20,917 nucleotides of DNA from a virus, in IMG/VR virus record IMGVR_UViG_3300043640_000163, positions 1 to 20,917 of that record. The stretch is one strand, 5' to 3'. A model generated the notes under the pieces. The model searched no databases and was not told the DNA's origin. It worked only from the letters and a program-made list of their open reading frames with translations. The position numbers were made by a program, and so were the translations under genes. Positions 514 through 16,490 of the stretch are shown here, piece after piece (within the stretch, counting starts at the first letter, position 1; every line of letters begins with the position of its first letter).

Positions 514-1634
514 CCGTACGCCCGCGAGAAGCGTTGCGGCATGATGCCGGTGATGGTGCCGTTGGCGTTGGAGTGCTGCACCTTGATGGTCGCCTTGCTA
601 CGGGCGGGCCACGGCGTGGTGAACCGGCCTTCCATGCGCCGCCACACCGGCAGGCCGGAATCCAGCATGTCGTGCAGCAGGAAGTCCAGCAGGTCGATGT
701 TGCGTGCGATCCGAAAGAACAGCGAGTCAACGGGATCCGTGCTGGCGGTCAGGGTGCGCGCGGTCGGGTCGGTGTCGACGAGCACGTAGCCGTCCTTCGC
801 GGTGAGCAACGGCAGCTCGATCATTCGGCCGTCGGGTCCGTCTTCGATCCACGCGCGCCCGGGCGCGGACACGATGAACTTCGCGTAGCTGGGTTCACTG
901 CCGCGGTTGGGCATGATGACGTGGCCCTCGCCGATGTGCACGCCCGGTAGCAGGCCGGTGACGAGCGGGCCGAGCAGGCCCTTGAGGATCTGTTCTATCA
1001 AGTCCTCCAACGCGTCCCACGGTGTGTGTGGTGGGTCGTCGCCGTTGTCGGTCTTGTTGACCCACGTGTTGGTCTCCAGCCGCTTGCACCAGTACGGGAA
1101 TGCCGCGACCAGCGTCATGTCCCAGGCCATGAAGTGATTCCCGAACGCCACCGGGTCGATGTCGAACGGCGTCTTCGGATCCTCGGCCAGGCGCACGCGC
1201 AGCCAGCGCCAGCCATGGGTTCGGGTGAACACACCTAGGTAGCTGTCCTGGTTGAGAGACCAACTGCTCCACCATCTTTCCTCCAGCATGCGATACCGGA
1301 AGGAGGTGTCGGGGGCCATCGAGTTGGACACCATCACCTGCAGGTTGATGTCGCGTTTGAGGATGTCGGTCCGTTCATGCACTGCGCCAACCTGATACGG
1401 GCCAGCGCTCATCAGCTGCGTGAACGGCGTGTGGAACAGTCCGGCAATCTTCGGGCCGAGATCGATGCCCTGGTCCCCACCGTGGGAACCCGCCAGGTCC
1501 CAGTACATTCGGGACCCGTCACTGGGATTCGGCGCACCGATGAGCACGACCTTGGTGTCCAGGGATTGGAGGCGTTTGTCGATCCGCTCGAACACCTCGT
1601 CGGGTGGGCCGGTGTACGGGTTCGGTGTTGTCAT
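510..1634 (-). CDS. Minor tail protein, distal-tail (Dit)-like
   Basis: This 374-aa protein starts at ATG 1634 and overlaps the tape-measure stop as ATGA; its own stop overlaps the next gene as GTGA. It sits directly after the tape measure, where siphophages place the distal tail protein that joins tube to tip. The N-terminal half has the belt-like beta pattern with GSRMYWDLAG and the segment HERTDILKRDINLQVMV. Around residues 120-190 there is a Trp-rich stretch (RWWSSWS, THGWRWLRVRL, HFMAWDMTLVAAFPYW) often seen in mycobacteriophage minor tail proteins at this position. The C-terminus ends in GTITGIMPQRFSRAYG. No enzyme motif was seen. The minor tail assignment is strong; calling it Dit specifically rests on gene order. 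Confidence 0.85.
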   Translation of the reverse strand: MTTPNPYTGPPDEVFERIDKRLQSLDTKVVLIGAPNPSDGSRMYWDLAGSHGGDQGIDLGPKIAGLFHTPFTQLMSAGPYQVGAVHERTDILKRDINLQVMVSNSMAPDTSFRYRMLEERWWSSWSLNQDSYLGVFTRTHGWRWLRVRLAEDPKTPFDIDPVAFGNHFMAWDMTLVAAFPYWCKRLETNTWVNKTDNGDDPPHTPWDALEDLIEQILKGLLGPLVTGLLPGVHIGEGHVIMPNRGSEPSYAKFIVSAPGRAWIEDGPDGRMIELPLLTAKDGYVLVDTDPTARTLTASTDPVDSLFFRIARNIDLLDFLLHDMLDSGLPVWRRMEGRFTTPWPARSKATIKVQHSNANGTITGIMPQRFSRAYG

Positions 1635-4600
1635 TGCTTGGGTGCCGGGTACTTTCGTGCGGAGGCGTAGTTGGCAGCCGTTGTCGCTTCAAGCGCTTTG
1701 TTGTCGGTGAACGTGCCGTGATCTCCCACGTTTGTGCTTTGATTCAAGTTCGTGATTCCTCCGGCTTCTGGATTCGGCACGGGCGCTGCGCCTTCCGCGC
1801 CGTACGGGGTGGGCAGGTTCATTCCCGGTATGCCGCTGCCAGGGGTCAGGCCCTCGCCGGGGGTCATGCCCGCGGCCAGCGCGCCGCCGATGCTGCCACC
1901 CGGCATCAGTGAGGTCAGCGAGTCCATGATTCCGCTACCGGAACCACCCAGTGCGGCGGAACCCATTCCGAGCAGCGCGTTTTCGGGAGTTCCGGGCTTC
2001 GTGAATCCCTTCATGAAACCCATCAGTCCGCTGGCCATCTTGGTCACGCCCCACTCCATCGGGTCCGAGAACCCTTCGGGGAGAAGCGCATCCTTGACGC
2101 CGCCGATGCCGATGTCGGCGAGCGCGCCGAAGTCGGGCAGGATTCCGTTGATGCCCTCGGCGAGCTTCTCTTGCGGGGTCCCGCCGCCCTCGCCGCCGAC
2201 CGCTGCCTTGAGGTCTTCGAGGTCGCCCTTGGCTTGCTCCAGGTCGCGGGTGGTCTTGGCGACCTGATCCTTCTTGCGCTCCAACGTCGTTGGCTTGGTC
2301 TTCGGGTCGGCCTCCAGGGCGTCCAGCTCTTTCTGCTGGCTGTCGAGCTGGTTGCCGAGGTCGGAGATCCGGTCGTTCTTCTCCCGGATCGCGCGCTGCT
2401 GGGCAGCAGTGCCACCACCGCTGCCGCCGCTGCCGCCGCCGCCACCCGGGCTGCCGCCGCCGATGGAGATGCTGCCGTTGCTCATCAGCTGGCTGGTCGG
2501 CAGTTTCCCGCCGCCCTTCTGCAGCCACACGTGGATGTGGTTCATGTGGTTCTCGTTGTCAGAACCCTTGTCCGGCATCTCCGTACCGGTCGTGTCGCCC
2601 GGTTGGTAGAGGCGTTGCCGCCAGATGAAGTGCGTCAGGCCCAGCGCCTCGGCGTTACTCGCCACGAACCCGGCGACGTTGTCGCCCAACAACTTTCCCT
2701 CTGGGCCATCCCAGCCTGGAATCATGATGTCGATGGCGTTGCCGCTGGGGTGTTCGGGCAGGCTGTCGGCGCGACGGCCACCGACCTCGGAGATCTCGGG
2801 GAATCGGCGCATCACCTCCGAGCGCAGCATGTTCGCACCGGGGTTGAGCCCCTGCGCGTAGCCAGGCAGCATCGACTTCAGGTAGTCGACTGGGGGCACC
2901 CATCCGGCGTTCAGCGCCGCGACGATTCCGTTGCCGCCGTTGGCCATTCCCGTCGTGGTGACGACACCCTCACCGCGGGTGAGCATGGCCAGCACGTTGT
3001 CGGTACCGCCTGGCCCGCGCACCGTGGAGCTGCCCTTGCGGAACCCCGGGATGGCACCGAAGATCGCGGGCAGCGGCACCGCGGGGCCGCCGTAGATCTC
3101 GGCCAGCGCCTCGGCGATCATCCGATACGGGTTCTTCGCCAGGATGCTTTCCGGGGAGTCGGCATCGGATCCGGTGGCACCGGACGCGTCGGCCTTGGCC
3201 ACCAGCTCCGCGAGGTCGTCCTTGGCCTGCTGCAGATCACGGGTGGTCTTGGCCACCTGGTCGCGCTTGCGCTCCAGGGTGGTGGGCTTCGTCTTCGGGT
3301 TGGCCTCCTGGACGGACAGCTCCTCGGTCTGGCTGTCCAGCTGGTTCTGCAGGTCGGTGATCCGGTCGTTCTTCTCCCGGATGGCCCGCTGCTGGGCAGC
3401 CGTTCCCCCAGTGCTGCTCGTTGCCCCGCTGAGACCGCCCGAGGCCGACGCAAGTTCCTCGGCCTGGGCTTCGTACTGCTTCACCCAGTCCTCGCCGTAG
3501 CCGCCGCCCTGGACGCCGCCCTGTGCGGGCGTGCGGGTGATCCGGTCGTAGATGTCACCGGTCGTCTTGTCGAGCCGGTCGAAGAAGCCGGTGATCTGAC
3601 TCGCGGCGGCGTTGCGACCCGGGTAGCCAGCGTCCTGCTGGAACAGCCCAATGTGGTCGCCGTTCGAAGCCGTCGGGCTGAGGCCACTCTCACCGATGGC
3701 GGTCGCGAGGATCGCTCGCGCGTCGGACTCGGTGTAGCCGCGACTGATCGCCTCGCCGATGATGGCGCTGGCAAGGTCTTCCTTCGTGGAGTCGTTGCCG
3801 ACGCCCGTGCTGCCACTCTTGAACCCAGGCAGCATGCCCCGAAGACCCAGCAGCTTGATCCGCGGGTGGAGCCTCTCCCACAAGTCCTTCTGCTGTTGGC
3901 GCTTTCCAGGATCAACTGCATCGGGGAAGAGGACGTCGTCGGGGTTGACCGGCCTGCCCCACCAATCGGCTGGGGGCGGTCCCCAGCCCTGGCCGGGAAC
4001 GCTCCAGTCAGGCACGGCGATACGTCCGGGGTACTTTCCTGGAGATGGATCCGGAATGTTGCCTTCCTCGTCGCCGGTCGGGCCGATGGGGCCAGGGGGC
4101 CACGGGATTTGACCGGCCTTGAAGACTTGGCCGCCACCGCGGAACCCAGGCAGCCCCTGCGGGCTCCACCCGGAGTTGAGCGCGCCCACGATTGCGGTGC
4201 CGCCGTTGGCCATTCCGTCCGTGGTGACGACGCCCTCGCCGCGGGTGAGCCAGGCCAGCACGTTGTCGATTCCGCCGGGGCCGTTGACACCGGTCGAGCC
4301 CTTGGCGAATCCCTGGCGTTCGCGCTGGCGCTGGCCGGGGGTCATGCCGCTGTCCCCGGTCTCGCCTAGGCCCTGCCCGATTCCCGCCTTGACGTCCATC
4401 ACCAGCGGGTTCTGGGACACCTTCTCGATCAGTTCCCTGATCCGTTTCATCGCGTCTTCGGTTGTGGCAGTGACCTTTACCTCGCCGTTCGGCATCCGCT
4501 CGACGGTGTAGCCCAGGTCTTCCAACGTCTTCTTTGCCGGGTCGGTGATCGCCGTGGTGACGATGGTCTTGTCATCTGGCACGTCCATGATCGACAACCC

Positions 4601-7273
4601 GAGCGCAGCGAACCGCTTGGCACCCTCGTCGGTGACTTTCCACGATCCATTGAGGGTGTCGTTGAACCGTTCCTGCTCGTCGGACGTCGCGCCAATGTCC
4701 TTGGCGGCCTGGTTCACCTGCCTGGCGTAGTCGAGCATCTGCCTGTCGGCCTCGGGCATCACGTCCTGCAGGTCTTGAATGCCGTTGCGCATACTGGGGT
4801 CGAAGTCCTTGTTTCCGGCCTCCTGCAGCGCGTTCCACTCCTTGATCTTCTGGTTCACGACGTCGCGGGCGTCGCCCTCCCCGAGGAGTGCGGCGGTCGT
4901 CTCCTCGGCACTGATGCCCATGGTGGTGAGGTCCTGCACCATGGTGCTGGCTTCGCGCCCGCCCCCGGCGATGCCCGTGGTGACCGACGCGGTGCCCTTG
5001 GTGCGGATGGCGGCGGCGGCGTCCGCGTCCCCGGTCGCCGCGAGCAGGCCTTGGTGGGGGTCGATGCCCAATTTCCAAGCGAGCGTGTCGGTTCCCTTGT
5101 CGGTGAATTCCCGCGCAATCTTTTCCTGAGTCTCCTTGGTGACCAGGCCGGTCTCCTTGTCCAGCGTTTCGCGGAGGGCGATCAGGTTCTCGCGATGAGC
5201 GCGGGCGGCGTCGGCAGCCTTCTGGTTGTTCGCGGCGATCTGGCCGATGCCAAATGCTATGGCAGCGAACGCGATACCACCGAACCCGCCGAGTGCGCTG
5301 ACCAATCCGCCTGCGGCAGATGCCATCCCGGAGAACGCGCCGGACACTAGCCCCCTGGTGCGCCCGAACCGCTCCGCATTGATGGCCGAGTTGTAGAATG
5401 CGGTCTGCATCCTGTTGATCGCCGGGTACTGCTGGCCCAATTTGCCTACCGCCGTGCCGAATTGGCCGACGGTGAACGTCTGCTTGCCGACGTTGACCAC
5501 CGACGTGTTCAGCTTCCCGTAGGCATCGGCCAGTCCGCCGACGCCACGCGTCGAACCTCCCAGCGCGCCAGTCACTTTCAGCATGCCGTTGCTGAACCCG
5601 TCGAGTACCGGGTTGAGGAACTTGCCCTTGAGGTAGAGCGCGCCGACCGCAACGGCGAACGTCTGAACGACCCCGATGTTGTTGGCCATCAGTTCGAGCA
5701 GCGGCTTGAGGAATCCCGCAGCGGTTTTCACCGCGTCGCCGAACGCGGACCAGGCACCCAGCGCCAGGCCCGCGGCCATCCCGCCGAGGGCCTTGCCGAT
5801 CTTCAGGACCGGATCCTTGATCAGCTTGACGCCGTCGATGATGTTCTTGAAGCCGCCGACGAATACGTCGATGACTTCCTTGAATGCCTGCGGCCCTTGA
5901 CCATTGGCCAAAGCGAGGATCGCGTTGCCGAAGTCCTGCATCGGCCCGTCGATCTTGTCGAACACGGCCAGCTGCACTCCGGCCCAGGCGTTCTTGATTC
6001 CCTCGACGACGCCAGGCAGGCCCTGCATCTGGGCGGCAGCATTCCTGGCGGTCGAGTCTAACTTGTCGAGCCCCTTGCGCTGCTCGTCCCAGACCAAGCC
6101 CGCGTCCTTGGCGGCGAACATCGCCGCGCGTATCGCGTCGGAGCCAAAGACCTGTGCCGCAGCCTCATTGAACTCCATCTGCGTCATGGTTCCGTTGTTC
6201 GCGGCGACGCTGAGCTGCTCCATCATGTTGCGATAGCCGACGAACTTGCCGGTGCCGTCATCGAGGTTCATGTTCAGCGCATGAAGCGCTTCGCTCTGCG
6301 GATCGGTTGCGTTCTGCCAGGCCAGAAGCGACGACTTCATCAGGGTGCCCGCGTCGGACCCCTTGACGCCCATCTGGGCGAACGTGGCAATCGTGGCGGT
6401 GGTGTCCTCGAAGGTCATGCCCATGCCGTTGGCGACACCAGCAACCTGCTGCATCGCATTCTGTAGATCGGGCATCTCCATCGATGACCCGAGCACGGCG
6501 TTGGTGAACACGTCGGCGATGTGGCCCGCGTCGCCGACGCCCAACTTGAAGGCATTGATCGCGTTGACCTGAATAGTCGCGGCGTCGGCAGCGCTAATCT
6601 GTGCCGCCGTGGCCAATTGCGTTGTGGCCCTGGCTGCCTTCATCGAATCGGAGACGGTGAAGCCACCCTTGGATAGCTCCAGCATTGCGCTTGCGGCGTC
6701 GGCTGCCGAGGTGCCAGCCAGGGTGGTGTCCGCGCCCAGATCCTGGGCCACCTTGCGCATGCCTGCCATCTCTGCGGTGGTGGCCGAGGTGACGCCCTGA
6801 ATGGAGTTCATCTGACGTTCGAAGTCCAGTCCAGCCGTCATCACCGACCGGACCCCGCCGACCACCGAGGCGATGACCCCGCCGATTCCGGCAGCGGTCA
6901 GCGTCGCCTTGAACGCGGTCGCGAACATATTCGCCGACTCGGTGCCGCTGGCCTTGGCCTTCGGGGCGGCCCCCCGGAATGCATTCCCAAGGTCCATGTT
7001 CGCGGTGCCGCTCTTGACCCCCTGCGCGAACTGCGTTCCGCTGGCCTTGCCCGCCTTGGCGGCGTCGGCCGTGACCTGCTTCAGTGGCGCGGTCAGGCCC
7101 TTGCTGACTTGCGAGGCTTGCCCAGTGATGCCCTGCGAAAACGACTTACCGACCTTGCCGCCAGCGGTCTTGGCGACGCCCTCGGTGGCGGTGAACTGCT
7201 TCTTGATCTGCTCCATCGCGTCGGCGTACTTGACGGTGAGAGTCACATACCCGGAGGCAAGTTCAACAGCCAT
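1631..7273 (-). CDS. Tail tape measure protein with two cell-wall-hydrolase-like domains
   Basis: At 1880 aa this is the longest gene. It starts at ATG 7273, six bases after AGGGGG (7280-7285), and follows the frameshifted chaperones as expected. Residues about 140-380 form the TP901-like tape-measure core (GLDFERQMNSIQGVTSATTA, then GSDAGTLMKSSL). Hydrophobic segments lie near 122-145, 492-512 and 650-682. Two modular cassettes follow. The first has a Gly-rich segment (991-1036), a lysozyme/Rpf-like domain (about 1160-1275, AIGESGLSPT with candidate catalytic E1195, then GLFQQD), and a coiled coil (1291-1357). The second has a Gly-rich segment (1413-1458), a zinc-peptidase-like domain (about 1474-1590; H1508, D1515 in PSGNAID, and HMNHIH with H1576/H1579/H1581), and a coiled coil (1622-1688). 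The tape measure sets tail length and is ejected into the cell wall, where muralytic domains help DNA entry. The wall-degrading role here is inferred. Confidence 0.95.
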   Translation of the reverse strand: MAVELASGYVTLTVKYADAMEQIKKQFTATEGVAKTAGGKVGKSFSQGITGQASQVSKGLTAPLKQVTADAAKAGKASGTQFAQGVKSGTANMDLGNAFRGAAPKAKASGTESANMFATAFKATLTAAGIGGVIASVVGGVRSVMTAGLDFERQMNSIQGVTSATTAEMAGMRKVAQDLGADTTLAGTSAADAASAMLELSKGGFTVSDSMKAARATTQLATAAQISAADAATIQVNAINAFKLGVGDAGHIADVFTNAVLGSSMEMPDLQNAMQQVAGVANGMGMTFEDTTATIATFAQMGVKGSDAGTLMKSSLLAWQNATDPQSEALHALNMNLDDGTGKFVGYRNMMEQLSVAANNGTMTQMEFNEAAAQVFGSDAIRAAMFAAKDAGLVWDEQRKGLDKLDSTARNAAAQMQGLPGVVEGIKNAWAGVQLAVFDKIDGPMQDFGNAILALANGQGPQAFKEVIDVFVGGFKNIIDGVKLIKDPVLKIGKALGGMAAGLALGAWSAFGDAVKTAAGFLKPLLELMANNIGVVQTFAVAVGALYLKGKFLNPVLDGFSNGMLKVTGALGGSTRGVGGLADAYGKLNTSVVNVGKQTFTVGQFGTAVGKLGQQYPAINRMQTAFYNSAINAERFGRTRGLVSGAFSGMASAAGGLVSALGGFGGIAFAAIAFGIGQIAANNQKAADAARAHRENLIALRETLDKETGLVTKETQEKIAREFTDKGTDTLAWKLGIDPHQGLLAATGDADAAAAIRTKGTASVTTGIAGGGREASTMVQDLTTMGISAEETTAALLGEGDARDVVNQKIKEWNALQEAGNKDFDPSMRNGIQDLQDVMPEADRQMLDYARQVNQAAKDIGATSDEQERFNDTLNGSWKVTDEGAKRFAALGLSIMDVPDDKTIVTTAITDPAKKTLEDLGYTVERMPNGEVKVTATTEDAMKRIRELIEKVSQNPLVMDVKAGIGQGLGETGDSGMTPGQRQRERQGFAKGSTGVNGPGGIDNVLAWLTRGEGVVTTDGMANGGTAIVGALNSGWSPQGLPGFRGGGQVFKAGQIPWPPGPIGPTGDEEGNIPDPSPGKYPGRIAVPDWSVPGQGWGPPPADWWGRPVNPDDVLFPDAVDPGKRQQQKDLWERLHPRIKLLGLRGMLPGFKSGSTGVGNDSTKEDLASAIIGEAISRGYTESDARAILATAIGESGLSPTASNGDHIGLFQQDAGYPGRNAAASQITGFFDRLDKTTGDIYDRITRTPAQGGVQGGGYGEDWVKQYEAQAEELASASGGLSGATSSTGGTAAQQRAIREKNDRITDLQNQLDSQTEELSVQEANPKTKPTTLERKRDQVAKTTRDLQQAKDDLAELVAKADASGATGSDADSPESILAKNPYRMIAEALAEIYGGPAVPLPAIFGAIPGFRKGSSTVRGPGGTDNVLAMLTRGEGVVTTTGMANGGNGIVAALNAGWVPPVDYLKSMLPGYAQGLNPGANMLRSEVMRRFPEISEVGGRRADSLPEHPSGNAIDIMIPGWDGPEGKLLGDNVAGFVASNAEALGLTHFIWRQRLYQPGDTTGTEMPDKGSDNENHMNHIHVWLQKGGGKLPTSQLMSNGSISIGGGSPGGGGGSGGSGGGTAAQQRAIREKNDRISDLGNQLDSQQKELDALEADPKTKPTTLERKKDQVAKTTRDLEQAKGDLEDLKAAVGGEGGGTPQEKLAEGINGILPDFGALADIGIGGVKDALLPEGFSDPMEWGVTKMASGLMGFMKGFTKPGTPENALLGMGSAALGGSGSGIMDSLTSLMPGGSIGGALAAGMTPGEGLTPGSGIPGMNLPTPYGAEGAAPVPNPEAGGITNLNQSTNVGDHGTFTDNKALEATTAANYASARKYPAPKQ
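2210..2410 (-). repeat. Tape-measure coiled-coil repeat, copy 2
   Basis: This encodes residues 1622-1688, 54/67 identical to copy 1. It follows a Gly/Ser linker (about 1605-1621) just after the zinc-peptidase-like domain, as copy 1 follows the lysozyme-like domain. Confidence 0.93.
2933..3037 (-). repeat. Tape-measure Gly-rich repeat, copy 2
   Basis: This encodes residues 1413-1447 (KGSSTVRGPGG to MANGG), 29/35 identical to the copy at 4199-4303. It precedes the zinc-peptidase-like domain, so each hydrolase-like domain has the same leading segment. Confidence 0.9.
3203..3403 (-). repeat. Tape-measure coiled-coil repeat, copy 1
   Basis: This encodes tape-measure residues 1291-1357, beginning TAAQQRAIREKNDR and including PKTKPTTLERK. 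It matches copy 2 (2210-2410) at 54 of 67 residues without gaps, and the DNA is visibly related. The charge pattern suggests an antiparallel helical hairpin broken at the Pro/Lys-rich turn. Confidence 0.93.
4199..4303 (-). repeat. Tape-measure Gly-rich repeat, copy 1
   Basis: This encodes residues 991-1025 (KGSTGVNGPGG, then TRGEGVVTT and MANGG). It is 29/35 identical to the copy at 2933-3037. The motif 'K-G-S/T-x-x-V-x-G-P-G-G-x-D-N-V-x-A-x-L-T-x-G-E' is common in actinophage tape measures. It stands upstream of the lysozyme-like domain. Confidence 0.9.
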
Positions 7274-10381: not shown

Positions 10382-11203
10382 TTAGGAGCCGCTCGGGTTG
10401 AACACCCGCACGCCGAGGGGCCGAACGACCTTGCCGCCGTAAACGTGCAGTGCCCTCGCCCTGTCGGCGAACTTGTCCTGCGCGCGCATCGCCTCGACCT
10501 GGTCGATCTGGCTGACGAACGACACCGCACGCTGGTGGAACACCACGAACTGCGGGTAGTTCACTGCCGGGAGGTGGTTGCTGGTAACGACCCTCATGTC
10601 GAGGATGCGGCCGATGGTCGCGTTGCGCAGACCATTGCTGTCACCGGACACGTCGGCGTTGGTCAGCTTCGAATCAGAGCCCAGCAGAAGGGCTTCGAAT
10701 TCGGCGTTGACCACGGCGACACGGTTGTCGGAGGGGACCTCCGACTTGTTCATTGCCTTGCGGGCATCGCGCAGCAGGTTGTAGGCCGCGTCACCCGTGG
10801 TGGGTGCGGTGCCTGATAGTGCGGTGCCGCCTGCGACCAACAGTGCCGAGATGAACTTGTCGGTGTCGGCGGCCAGGGCGTATCCGGCAGCGGTGGTGTA
10901 CGCGTTCAGCGAACCCGCGCTTTGCGCGCGGTCGATGTCATCGACGAAGAAGTCGGTCGACTTCTCCTGATCGATGAGCAGATCCACCGAGGTGTCGGAC
11001 ACGGCCGACGCGCTCGTAATACGGCCTGCCGCTTTGTAATCGGTGACCGTCGGCGCGACGATGCCGGTGATGTGCACCGTGTTGCCGCGGGTTGCCAGGC
11101 CCTCGTAGTCGCGGTTGACCAGCGGTGCCAGTACGTTCTCGGTGTTCCACAGTTCGAGCAGGTTCGCCGCCCAGAGGGCGGGAATGAAGTGGGTGATTGC
11201 CAT
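10382..11203 (-). CDS. Major capsid protein (P22-coat-like HK97 fold)
   Basis: The 273-aa protein begins MAITHFIPALWAANLLELWN at ATG 11203, with AAAAGG about ten bases upstream. This opening, followed by VNRDYEGLATRGNTVHI and later DQEKSTDFFVDDIDRAQS, is the signature of the P22-coat/gp5-like capsid family widespread in actinophages ('E-x-x-Y-x-x-x-V-x-D-x-x-x-A-Q'). The C-terminal section (VSQIDQVEAMRAQDKFADRA, VYGGKVVRPLGVRVFN) also fits. It follows the scaffold gene, as usual. Around 400 copies would form the shell in a typical icosahedral head, by family knowledge. Confidence 0.95.
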   Translation of the reverse strand: MAITHFIPALWAANLLELWNTENVLAPLVNRDYEGLATRGNTVHITGIVAPTVTDYKAAGRITSASAVSDTSVDLLIDQEKSTDFFVDDIDRAQSAGSLNAYTTAAGYALAADTDKFISALLVAGGTALSGTAPTTGDAAYNLLRDARKAMNKSEVPSDNRVAVVNAEFEALLLGSDSKLTNADVSGDSNGLRNATIGRILDMRVVTSNHLPAVNYPQFVVFHQRAVSFVSQIDQVEAMRAQDKFADRARALHVYGGKVVRPLGVRVFNPSGS

Positions 11204-12507: not shown

Positions 12508-12738
12508 TTATTCGTTATCGTCGCTGGTCACGACACTGCCGTCAGCAGCGATTTGCCGGTAGTCGGGATTGCGCTCGTAGGTGCCGTCAGCCCGACGCCA
12601 CCCGATGATCGCCAGCTCGCCGACGTTCTCCCGCCAGACGGTCAGACGCCCCGGCATGGTCAGCGCCGAGAACGCCTCCAGCCCGTCGGCGAACGCGACA
12701 GGAGTACCGCCGTCGGGTTCGGCGTAGTAGGTCCACAT
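12508..12738 (-). CDS. Small unknown protein (76 aa) directly after the MuF fusion
   Basis: ATG 12738 overlaps the last base of the MuF stop (TGATG), implying translational coupling. The open frame continues upstream to 13512, but that part is antisense-like shadow of MuF, so the coupled start is used. The product begins MWTYYAEPDGGTPVAFADGL and has beta-like stretches GRLTVWRENVGELAIIGWRR followed by an acidic end SVVTSDDNE. Not recognised. Its place right behind a polyvalent, toxin-like C-terminus makes an accessory or immunity role conceivable, but nothing in the sequence proves it. Confidence 0.78.
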   Translation of the reverse strand: MWTYYAEPDGGTPVAFADGLEAFSALTMPGRLTVWRENVGELAIIGWRRADGTYERNPDYRQIAADGSVVTSDDNE

Positions 12739-15700
12739 CAGAACGCCCCCTGTCGGCTGGCGGTCCAGGTGGCCGCCTGCAGGTGGTACGGCACCAGCTC
12801 GGTGTATCCGGCTGCGTGCAGTGCTTGCAGCACGTCGGGGTGGATGTTCAGGTTCGCCTCCGCGGTGGCCTGGCGCACTGCCTCGGCGAACTCCTCGTAG
12901 ATCTGATTCTTCTCGGGCTGCTTCGCGTCGGCCGCCCTGCTGCCCTTGGCCTTGCCGCCATCCAGCACGCGGCGGGCCTCGCCGCTGTCGAGCCGGATAC
13001 CGAGGGCCACTCTGGCCTGCCAGGTGTCGATGGTGACGGCCGTCGCGTCCTCCTGTGCGAGAACGTTTTTGGTGTGGTTCCAGATCTTCGGGGAGTCGAG
13101 TGGCTTGTATTGGCCGTTGTGCCAGCCCGCCGGATCCTTGTGCGGGTCGTCGGGCTTGCCCTTGCGGGTCGCGATCTGGCGTTCGCTGTAGATCTGGTTG
13201 CCGCGCATCTCCCACACCGGATTGTCGCCTGCTGCAACACGTTTGAGCCGGTCGACGTTGGCGGTGAATTCGCCAGGGAAGTCCTTGATGGTCGAGGCGG
13301 CCAGCTCCTCGGGGGTCATCCGCAATGCCTTGGTGACCGCGGCGTAATTGACGTCGAAGTCCATCCGCGGGGACAGTGCGGCGTACATCGCAGCGGCCCG
13401 GTCGATGTCGCCCTCGAACCTTGTGCCCCGGCTGTTCTCGGCCAGGAACCAGCGCAGCTTCGGGTACCACGCGATGCCCTCGATCTGCTGATCGGGGGTG
13501 AGCCGATTCCATGCGGCCATGTCATCATCGAGGGTGTTGTTCTTCATCATCTCGATGGGCGGATGCTTGCCCTTGCCCGGACCGTAGGGCAGGTGGACCC
13601 CGCCCTTCTCGTCGTGGATGATCGGCACGGTCGGCCCGCGCAGCCGGTTGTTCTTCGCAACGAACCAGACGTCGAGGTCCTTCTCCTTGCGAATAACGGG
13701 CGTACCCTTAGTGATTGGGATGGTGTCCCAGAGCCGCTGCATCTTCGCTTCGAGCTTGGCCTTCATCTCCGGGGACGTCGTCGATGCCCGTGCGACGTTG
13801 AAGATCTTGTGGTTGACGTCCTTTACCGCCATCGACTTCGCGGTGTGAATCTGCACCTCGAACTCGGTGCCGTGCATCTTGAAGGTCATGTTCCGGCCGC
13901 GATACCCGGTGTAGGAGATACCCTTTGGCTGCTTGACCGGCTCGGCACCCAGGCTAACCAGGGCATCGCGCAGGTCGTTTCCCGACTTCCACGAGTCGGC
14001 CTCGGGCACGATTGCGGTGTAGCGCACCGTGTCTCGCATGTTGTCGACGGCCTGCTGAGCAGTCTGGCCCTTCTGGACCATCTCGTCCTGGGCCTTGCGG
14101 TACAGCGACGGGGCTTCCTTGAGCTTGTGGGCCAGTCCGTACATCTGGCCACCGGATGCCTCGACCGTGGCGGTGATCGCCGCGGTGATGGGCGGCTCGA
14201 TCCCGGCCGAGGCGCGGTACTTGCCGTCGGCTGCCGCGCGCGCGAGAGCACGTTGCTCGGCGGTCAGGGCGGCGTTGTCGACAGCGGCGTAATCCGCGTC
14301 GGTCCAGGGCAGCGGGGTCTCGTCCACCTCGGGCTCGGCTGCGCGCTTGCGCTCCAGTGCGGTCACCGAACGCGACGGCGGCTCTGGCGTGACCTTCGTC
14401 AGCGGCAGCTTCGACTCCCGAATGAGCAACGCGTGCAACGCCTTCGCGCCGTCGGTGGCCTTGTCGCCGTTGATCTCCACGTCGGCGAACGCCTCGGCCA
14501 ACATCTCCGGGGGATCCGGCAGGCCGCCCGTCTCGAACGAGTAGCCCGAGAACTGCTGTGCCCGCCACTCGTTGAACGTCATGCGGGGCTTCAGCTTCCC
14601 GTACGCGTCGGCGAGGGTCTCGTTGACCTTGTCACGTGCCCGCCGACTGCCGGTCGTGTCCAGGGTGTGGGCGAATTCGTGCACGGCGACGGCGTAGGCC
14701 GGTGACCTGTCGCCAATCGGCGGGTGGAATCCTTCGGCGACGTCGGCGGTGTAGGCGGTGTTCAGGTTCGCGACGTGCTCGGCGGTTCTGAACCACGACT
14801 CGTTGAATTCGATCTTCGAGTCGCCCTCGCGGATGTCGGATGCGGTCTGCGCGAATGTGTTTGGCCTGCTGTGCAAGTCGGTGGCGGTGACCAGCTTGAG
14901 CCGGGAGTGTGGGTACTTCGTCAGCATGTCGTCCAGCGCCCGGGTGGCCTCGGCCGCCACGTCGGGGTGCATCTTCGACTGGTCGAGCCGCACCGAGAGC
15001 CCGGGGTGGGCCTTGCGCAGCCTGGCCCCGGCGGCGGCCGTACCGTCGAATGCCGTTGCGGCTGTTCGTGTTTCAGTCGCCGGCCGTTCTAGGGCGTTGG
15101 GTCCTGCGCGCGCTTCGCTTCCTCCTGGAACTTCAGAAGTGCTTGTCGCGCTTGCGCTTTCAGCTGCTCTTTTGACTTGTTCTCGGTATCGAGAATGAAG
15201 ATTGGCTGCTTCATCGGATTTGGTGTACACCCCCTTCTTGCTGATGGTGCCGATGTCGATCTGGTTGAATTCGCCGAGGTCGAACACGGCGAGCTGGTCG
15301 GCACCTTGTGCGGTGGCGATGGTGGCGGCGCTGGGCGGTCCTACCCGGCTGATGTCGGTGTAGACCTTGCCCTTCTCGACCCAAAGTCCCAGGTGGTTAC
15401 CCGGATTGGAGAGTTCGTCGTAGTGCTCGTCGATGTAGCGGTCGACGTGCTCGGGTGTCCAGTCCTTCATCGGCACAACGACTTCGGTGCCCTTGAAGGG
15501 AGCGTAGGCATAGCCCTTGGCGGGCTGGCTGCCCTCCAGGTCGATGGTGATGCCGCCGTTCTTGCGGACGACGTCGTAGACCTGCTGGTCGAGGTCTAGA
15601 TCGATCTTGGGAAGGCGGGCCTTGACGATGTCGACGGGACCCTGAAACGCCTGGTGCTTCCAGGTCAGCGTCGGCCCGATCTCGCCGTGCTCGCGGGCGA

Positions 15701-16490
15701 CGATCAGCTTGCGGAATCCGGCGGGGGTGGTGCCGTCTTCGATGGCCTTGGCGATCAGCTTGTGCTGCTCGTCGGCATCGGCCAGCACTGCCTTGTCGAG
15801 GCGGTGGTCGATGGCGTCTTGGCCGCCCGCGGGCAGGGTGCCGACCCCGCAGTGGCAGCCGGGGTGTATCGGCATCAGGGCCTTGGCGCTGTAGGTCTGC
15901 GTCGATGCGATCTGGCACAGCGGGCAGGAGCCGTGCCGCGAGACTCGCCGATAGTGGCTCTGCCCTGAGGCTTTCACCACTTCGGAGGATTGGCGAACCT
16001 TGGTCATCTGCATGTCGGTGTCGACCATGCGTTCCATGCGCCGCGTACCGGCGATCAGCGCCTCGTCGTCGCTGGCACCTGCGCGGCGCTGCTGGACGAC
16101 GGTCCAGAACGGGCGCGCATACTCCTGGGCCTTGGTGACACCCTGGCGGTTGAGTACGTCGAAGCCCACCGGCGGTGGACGTTTCACGCCGAACACCTTG
16201 GAGACGTGCGCGTTGGTCAGCTCGGCAACGGTGCGCTGTCCGGCCTCGACCATCGGGGTGAAGGCGGCCACGGTTGCCTCGATGCGGCCAGCGACCTCCC
16301 CGCCGGAAAGCAGGTACTCCTTGGCACCGTCGAAGAAGTTCATGACGTGCTCGACCACCTGGCCGGTGACGTCGTCGATGACTTGCTTGTAGGCCTCTTC
16401 GTCGGTCTTGTCCGAACCGGTGAGGCCGACGATCTCGTCGGGGTCGACCGGGTCGGCTTCGACCGGCTCGGCCTCGACCAGCTCGGTCAT
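12738..16490 (-). CDS. MuF-family capsid protein fused to a zincin, RelA/SpoT-like and further domains
   Basis: This 1250-aa protein starts at ATG 16490, overlapping the portal stop (ATGA). Residues 1-290 are a MuF/SPP1-gp7 minor head protein with the zinc-type knot CPLC (189-192) and HPGCHC (209-214), then EHGEIGPTLTW. Residues 300-415 form a phage-associated module (YIDEHYDELSNPGNHLGLW, VYTDISRV, QLAVFDL). Residues 480-700 look like a zinc metalloprotease: HEFAH (604-608) and third-ligand candidate E666 in EMLAEAFAD. Residues 765-925 resemble RelA/SpoT nucleotidyltransferases: D820-TVRYT, TGYRGRN (861-867), FEVQIHTAKS (877-886), H894 and R901. Residues 990-1250 resemble a phage DUF7178-type domain: AWYP, AALSP (1037-1041), VTIDTWQ (1152-1158), LQAATW. 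MuF proteins lie inside the head and may enter the host. Residues 424-479 have poor codon use; see the feature at 15089-15214. Confidence 0.88.
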   Translation of the reverse strand: MTELVEAEPVEADPVDPDEIVGLTGSDKTDEEAYKQVIDDVTGQVVEHVMNFFDGAKEYLLSGGEVAGRIEATVAAFTPMVEAGQRTVAELTNAHVSKVFGVKRPPPVGFDVLNRQGVTKAQEYARPFWTVVQQRRAGASDDEALIAGTRRMERMVDTDMQMTKVRQSSEVVKASGQSHYRRVSRHGSCPLCQIASTQTYSAKALMPIHPGCHCGVGTLPAGGQDAIDHRLDKAVLADADEQHKLIAKAIEDGTTPAGFRKLIVAREHGEIGPTLTWKHQAFQGPVDIVKARLPKIDLDLDQQVYDVVRKNGGITIDLEGSQPAKGYAYAPFKGTEVVVPMKDWTPEHVDRYIDEHYDELSNPGNHLGLWVEKGKVYTDISRVGPPSAATIATAQGADQLAVFDLGEFNQIDIGTISKKGVYTKSDEAANLHSRYREQVKRAAESASATSTSEVPGGSEARAGPNALERPATETRTAATAFDGTAAAGARLRKAHPGLSVRLDQSKMHPDVAAEATRALDDMLTKYPHSRLKLVTATDLHSRPNTFAQTASDIREGDSKIEFNESWFRTAEHVANLNTAYTADVAEGFHPPIGDRSPAYAVAVHEFAHTLDTTGSRRARDKVNETLADAYGKLKPRMTFNEWRAQQFSGYSFETGGLPDPPEMLAEAFADVEINGDKATDGAKALHALLIRESKLPLTKVTPEPPSRSVTALERKRAAEPEVDETPLPWTDADYAAVDNAALTAEQRALARAAADGKYRASAGIEPPITAAITATVEASGGQMYGLAHKLKEAPSLYRKAQDEMVQKGQTAQQAVDNMRDTVRYTAIVPEADSWKSGNDLRDALVSLGAEPVKQPKGISYTGYRGRNMTFKMHGTEFEVQIHTAKSMAVKDVNHKIFNVARASTTSPEMKAKLEAKMQRLWDTIPITKGTPVIRKEKDLDVWFVAKNNRLRGPTVPIIHDEKGGVHLPYGPGKGKHPPIEMMKNNTLDDDMAAWNRLTPDQQIEGIAWYPKLRWFLAENSRGTRFEGDIDRAAAMYAALSPRMDFDVNYAAVTKALRMTPEELAASTIKDFPGEFTANVDRLKRVAAGDNPVWEMRGNQIYSERQIATRKGKPDDPHKDPAGWHNGQYKPLDSPKIWNHTKNVLAQEDATAVTIDTWQARVALGIRLDSGEARRVLDGGKAKGSRAADAKQPEKNQIYEEFAEAVRQATAEANLNIHPDVLQALHAAGYTELVPYHLQAATWTASRQGAF
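15089..15214 (-). CDS. Alternative-frame 41-aa coding stretch inside the MuF linker
   Basis: In the +1 frame relative to MuF, ATG 15214 opens 41 codons: MKQPIFILDTENKSKEQLKA, then a helix LKFQEEAKRAQDPTP and TAG. About two thirds of its codons end in G/C, against roughly one third for the MuF frame over the same bases (MuF residues 424-479), where AAA, GAT, CAT, TCT, CGA and AGA cluster. So this frame, not MuF, looks selected here. There is no close ribosome site (a G-rich run lies about 16 bases upstream). It may be the tail of a shorter MuF reached by frameshift, a tiny overprinted gene, or a trace of an indel at the five-C run 15230-15234. Which one cannot be decided from sequence. Confidence 0.5.
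   Translation of the reverse strand: MKQPIFILDTENKSKEQLKAQARQALLKFQEEAKRAQDPTP

Follow-up and report, generated by a model that had tools for sequence, protein, structure and literature searches.

The tape measure protein (TMP) encoded in the window – the whole analysed stretch of 20,917 bases, a complete IMG/VR virus record – carries two parallel cassettes, each made up of a Gly-rich segment (GLY), a hydrolase-family domain and a predicted coiled coil (CC): GLY1–linker–N3–CC1 followed by GLY2–MT3–CC2. The flanks of the two cassettes are repeats of common origin, and the middles belong to two different families, one lysozyme-like and the other a zinc peptidase family, each with its own predicted fold and conserved residues. 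It is probable, in our assessment, that the protein opens murein during DNA entry by means of two cutters, one acting on glycan and the other, possibly weakened, on the stem peptide; we infer this activity from the domain families, and the host only from relatives.

The tape measure gene and its repeated flanks

As judged by its matches to PhageMin_Tail (1e-32) and to the tape measure family phrog_9228 (1e-127), the 1880-aa ORF is a tape measure protein, with an N-terminal half that is that of an ordinary tape measure (PhageMin_Tail region, PHROG matches). The gene is flanked by a tail assembly chaperone and a minor tail gene, and the minus-strand gene order of the window (terminase, portal, protease/head morphogenesis, major capsid, connectors, major tail protein, tail assembly chaperone, TMP, minor tail) contains the expected tail gene succession from the major tail protein onwards. 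Two further features of this strand were recorded. A part of the major capsid gene (window 10850-11203 (-)), approximately 75% identical to cluster F-type mycobacteriophages, is the sole DNA-level match of the window to phage records. A 1250-aa ORF (window 12738-16490 (-)) is a fusion of four matched domains: head maturation protease (residues 70-292), zinc-finger protease-like (510-689), head morphogenesis (751-929) and DUF7178 (991-1096).

Comparison of the TMP with itself yields two gap-free diagonals, at offsets of 422 and 331 residues, bearing out the two parallel cassettes described by the sequence-only reading. The GLY copies are identical at 29/35 positions (residues 991-1025 vs 1413-1447), exactly as that reading had counted, and the CC copies at 55/67 (residues 1287-1353 vs 1618-1684), a recount that replaces the earlier 54/67; the best matches in shuffled proteins reach 13/35 and 18/67 at the respective lengths. 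Gapped alignment extends the pairs to 43/60 (GLY) and 67/97 (CC) aligned residues and puts the start of the repeat at residue 988 (window 4312); looking for an extension of the duplication beyond CC1/CC2, we found no significant similarity. The segments between the flanks, residues 1048-1286 (Pro-rich linker and N3) and 1476-1617 (MT3 and a Gly linker), do indeed differ, as had been claimed: their middle domains align with a score of 36, within the range of shuffles (mean 28, maximum 47).

Positions of the tape measure gene, its two cassettes and selected residues in the window
Feature	Residues	Window position	Strand	Basis or remark
Tape measure protein (TMP) ORF		1631..7273	(-)	1880 aa
GLY1, first Gly-rich copy	988-1047	4133..4312	(-)	43/60 aligned residues identical to GLY2
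Pro-rich linker	1048-1159	3797..4132	(-)	homologous to L138 linker
Domain 1, N3 lysozyme-like	1160-1277	3443..3796	(-)	phrog_700, Phage_lysozyme2, predicted fold
Putative catalytic residue of domain 1	E1195	3689-3691	(-)	invariant in relatives
CC1, first predicted coiled-coil copy	1287-1362	3188..3415	(-)	55/67 identical to CC2
GLY2	1410-1475	2849..3046	(-)	self-comparison, GLY tree
Domain 2, MT3 / VldE-like zinc peptidase	1476-1590	2504..2848	(-)	profile and predicted fold
MT3 residue	H1508	2750-2752	(-)	VldE H301 zinc ligand equivalent
MT3 residue	D1515	2729-2731	(-)	VldE D308 zinc ligand equivalent
MT3 residue	N1578	2540-2542	(-)	at VldE D372 position
MT3 residue	H1581	2531-2533	(-)	VldE H375 zinc ligand equivalent
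CC2	1618-1692	2198..2422	(-)	self-comparison, CC tree

A lysozyme-like and a zinc-peptidase-like middle

Profile and fold comparisons support the assignment of domain 1 as lysozyme-like, in the N3 / phi29 gp13 / Phage_lysozyme2 group. It matches the endolysin family phrog_700 at 1.1e-10 and resembles the N-terminal LysA N3 of Tweety gp30 (44% identity, 9e-15) and of Daisy; N3 was defined in Tweety gp30, where an HHpred match to the phi29 tail protein gp13 was reported (PMC3314691). Pfam Phage_lysozyme2 matches 7/7 members of the domain 1 alignment, the window copy with a score of 21.1 bits that lies below the gathering cut-off of 28.2 (relatives 28-29 bits). The structure model (pLDDT 82.4) aligns with fungal muramidases (8b2h, Z 11.8; 8b2e, Z 11.2) and with phi29 gp13 (3csq, Z 9.1), and Foldseek alone returns a modest lysozyme fold match (8b2e, TM 0.64, E 1.6e-3). 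E1195, a Glu following the second helix, is invariant in 17 sequences and would be the catalytic residue; the GLFQQD motif lies at residue 1209, and the C-terminal part of the domain is shorter than in most relatives. The closest relative of the window N3 is that of locus L114 (55%, support 99), and the Pro-rich linker in front of it scores 195 against the linker of L138 (shuffles ≤66) and recurs in L113 and in the Avani/Yoshi TMPs (the latter at 36%, 1e-10). Of the earlier label 'lysozyme/Rpf-like' the first half fits better: the PF06737 profile, which matches Giles at 1.3e-25, finds nothing in the TMP of the window even when E is allowed to reach 1, and we set an Rpf identity aside in favour of the better-fitting N3 / Phage_lysozyme2 group.

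Domain 2, which the sequence-only reading had rightly called zinc-peptidase-like, is by sequence profile and model a member of the TM4 motif 3 / VldE zinc peptidase family, and we have no doubt about this membership. A profile built from eight relatives finds VldE (PDB 9flh) at 1.6e-22, TM4 gp17 motif 3 matches the MT3 profile at 144 bits, and the AlphaFold2 model (pLDDT 84.7) superimposes on VldE 9flm over 108 residues (Z 17.7, rmsd 1.6). VldE, an L,D-endopeptidase, cleaves L-Ala-D-Glu; H301, D308 and H375 hold its zinc, and it is inactivated by Ala substitution at H370, D372 or H373 (PMC11667670). All three zinc ligands are kept in the window and are conserved across all aligned MT3 relatives; H370, D372 and H373 correspond to H1576, N1578 and H1579 in the HMNHIH motif (residues 1576-1581), so that only D372 is changed. 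E1195, GLFQQD, H1508, D1515 and HMNHIH all lie where the sequence-only reading had placed them, and of the catalytic residues that it expected relatives to keep, E1195 and the zinc ligands are conserved; at the D372 position the window and 6/41 other distinct MT3 sequences have Asn.

Since N1578 replaces an Asp required in VldE, the certainty of cutting by MT3 is weakened; the substitution may lower, alter or leave its activity. The proposal that the protein cuts both glycan and peptide is thus upheld as to families and folds, and softened as to the peptide. It is conceivable, at a probability well short of that of our preferred reading, that N3 alone is active and has taken over the cutting, MT3 having become non-catalytic through the D-to-N change and serving in wall binding or in keeping length: VldE D372A is inactive (PMC11667670), and TM4 is viable without motif 3 (PMC1796659). 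However, the VldE evidence concerns an Ala and not an Asn mutant (PMC11667670), and the window MT3 retains not only the zinc ligands but also R1501, D1503, W1551, H1576 and H1579. Moreover, Asn has been tolerated repeatedly at this position, because it is seen in the 6/41 other MT3 sequences, where the tree calls for a minimum of two separate changes, and recurs, as HxNH[VI]H, in other TMP peptidase-like domains. The window MT3 is a natural Asn variant at a residue essential in VldE, and so opens the role of this residue to a direct test.

Origin and distribution of the double cassette

When the trees also include the segments of other phages, GLY1 groups with GLY2 (SH-aLRT 99) and CC1 with CC2 (SH-aLRT 98). 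The simplest reading of these pairings is a duplication of the flanks inside this lineage, with differing middles. Of the earlier proposal of a segment duplication followed by domain exchange, the duplication of the flanks and the difference between the middles are supported. The end branch of GLY1 is longer than that of GLY2 (0.59 vs 0.18), which fits cassette 1 as the derived copy, so that cassette 2 looks parental. We also considered a recent duplication and rejected it, as identical codons at identical residues are modestly above expectation (39/59 vs 0.54; 29/43 vs 0.49); given this only modest excess, the duplication, as dated by codon identity, is old.

Alternatively, no duplication took place and two whole cassettes of different phages recombined end to end. 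Single-cassette forms of both types exist, and the nearest relatives of the cassette 1 linker (L138/L113) and N3 (L114) are found elsewhere; however, GLY1 and CC1 join GLY2 and CC2 in preference to any GLY or CC from another phage, and while gene conversion after the joining could mimic this pairing of the flanks, we regard such an origin as improbable. That both domains are non-enzymatic spacers, merely lengthening the ruler and hence the tail, is very hard to credit: tail length is set by TMP length and removal of TM4 motif 3 shortens the tail by approximately 20 nm (PMC1796659), but a spacer has no need of E1195 and zinc-ligand residues conserved in all aligned relatives, and activity has been measured for TM4 motif 3 and VldE.

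Across the 138 loci compared, GLY-MT3-CC is present in 81 ORFs (many from near-identical prophages), with the GLY2-type segment directly preceding MT3 in the single-cassette relatives. GLY-N3-CC occurs in L138, N3-CC in L114 and GLY-N3-CC-CC in Ayotoya, and only the window has GLY-N3-CC-GLY-MT3-CC. The TMP of Gordonia phage Ayotoya (L013) is a second one with a duplicated CC, its two copies standing after N3; in the CC tree this duplication is independent of that in the window. Among 50,697 phage records no place reached 80% coverage of the region with both domains; the N3 part was missing from each of the 25 top-ranking matches. A peptide-pattern search of IMG/VR returned no close relative of the whole TMP. 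A linker search of IMG/VR likewise found none, yet L138 and L113 carry the linker, so this search was not exhaustive. In bacterial genomes, the CC search found no relative and the N3 search found 21 loci, none with MT3 in the N3 ORF. In Mycobacterium chromosomes and a plasmid (L143-L161, e.g. L144, L150), N3 sits at the C-terminus of ORFs of approximately 370-500 aa that look unlike tape measures or lysins.

The view that two bond specificities in one TMP are less usual did not hold. A metallopeptidase-type signature (H...D...HxxHxH, with 0.0 expected from shuffles) is found in 29/34 TMP ORFs with N3, the window included (28/33 others; several are near-duplicates), and visual inspection of L114 and L137 shows an NlpC-type motif in its place; Giles, Barnyard and CwlP, discussed below, add further cases. 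The domains upstream of N3 are called peptidase-type on the strength of this signature only, as comparison with the MT3 profile gave weak probabilities in two groups (4-7%) and a moderate one in a third (68%), and no peptidase was matched when the PDB was searched by profile. Such a peptidase-like domain stands between the Pro-rich linker and N3 in L138 and L113; cassette 1 of the window is without that domain, and MT3 is placed in cassette 2 instead. Two kinds of predicted cutter in one TMP are thus common in related phages; the unusual feature is the tandem double cassette alone, which none of the other compared loci has.

In the reading we prefer, a GLY–hydrolase–CC segment would have been duplicated in this lineage, with MT3, the customary occupant, retained in cassette 2, while a Pro-rich linker and N3 of kinds known from other actinophage TMPs have come to occupy cassette 1. 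At infection the TMP would be released from the tail, and its two domains would make a local opening in the wall. A more far-reaching version, which we think doubtful, takes the hydrolase position as a duplicated, exchangeable slot, of which one was refilled by a glycan cutter while the older peptide slot went over to an Asn variant of altered activity, giving a division of labour. A sequence-level mosaic signal has been reported as frequent in tape measures, in a study that could confirm no recent case (PMC10684548); the TMP of the window clearly exemplifies the duplication of a segment whose middle domain was replaced.

Comparison with known systems

The TMP of TM4, gp17 (Piuri and Hatfull 2006), likewise has GLY followed by MT3, the latter aligned over its whole length (144 bits) with W853 conserved; unlike the window protein, it has a single hydrolase domain with an intact HMDH, no N3 and no CC match. 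Its motif 3 hydrolyses peptidoglycan and helps to infect stationary cells (PMC1796659), and the Barnyard TMP has been described with motifs 1 and 2 (PMC1796659). Gaia gp12 and phiGD20-1 gp13 have the order GLY-MT3-CC (identity 50-54% in MT3 and 59-66% in CC), but in one cassette only. VldE (Spr1875) of S. pneumoniae shares its fold and conserved zinc ligands with domain 2; it is, however, a cellular enzyme and has Asp at the position of N1578.

Other tail proteins combine cutters in other ways. Giles gp20 is a TMP with MT3 and a glycan-cutting-type domain (Transglycosylas PF06737, 1.3e-25), but this Rpf-type domain stands directly downstream of MT3, outside any repeated GLY/CC frame. CwlP (YomI) of the B. 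subtilis prophage SPbeta, for which muramidase and DD-endopeptidase domains have been reported (PMC5380687), is also a large tail protein with two types of cutter, though of other enzyme families and with another bond, and is likened here by description only. The Gordonia/Omega-type TMPs (ObLaDi, Attis, Clown, Phinally, Halley), together with L138 and L113, have N3 and a metallopeptidase-type signature, as does the window; in these, the peptidase-like domain, which is not MT3 at a confident profile level, lies upstream of N3 within one cassette, and L138 and L113 additionally have the Pro-rich linker in common with the window.
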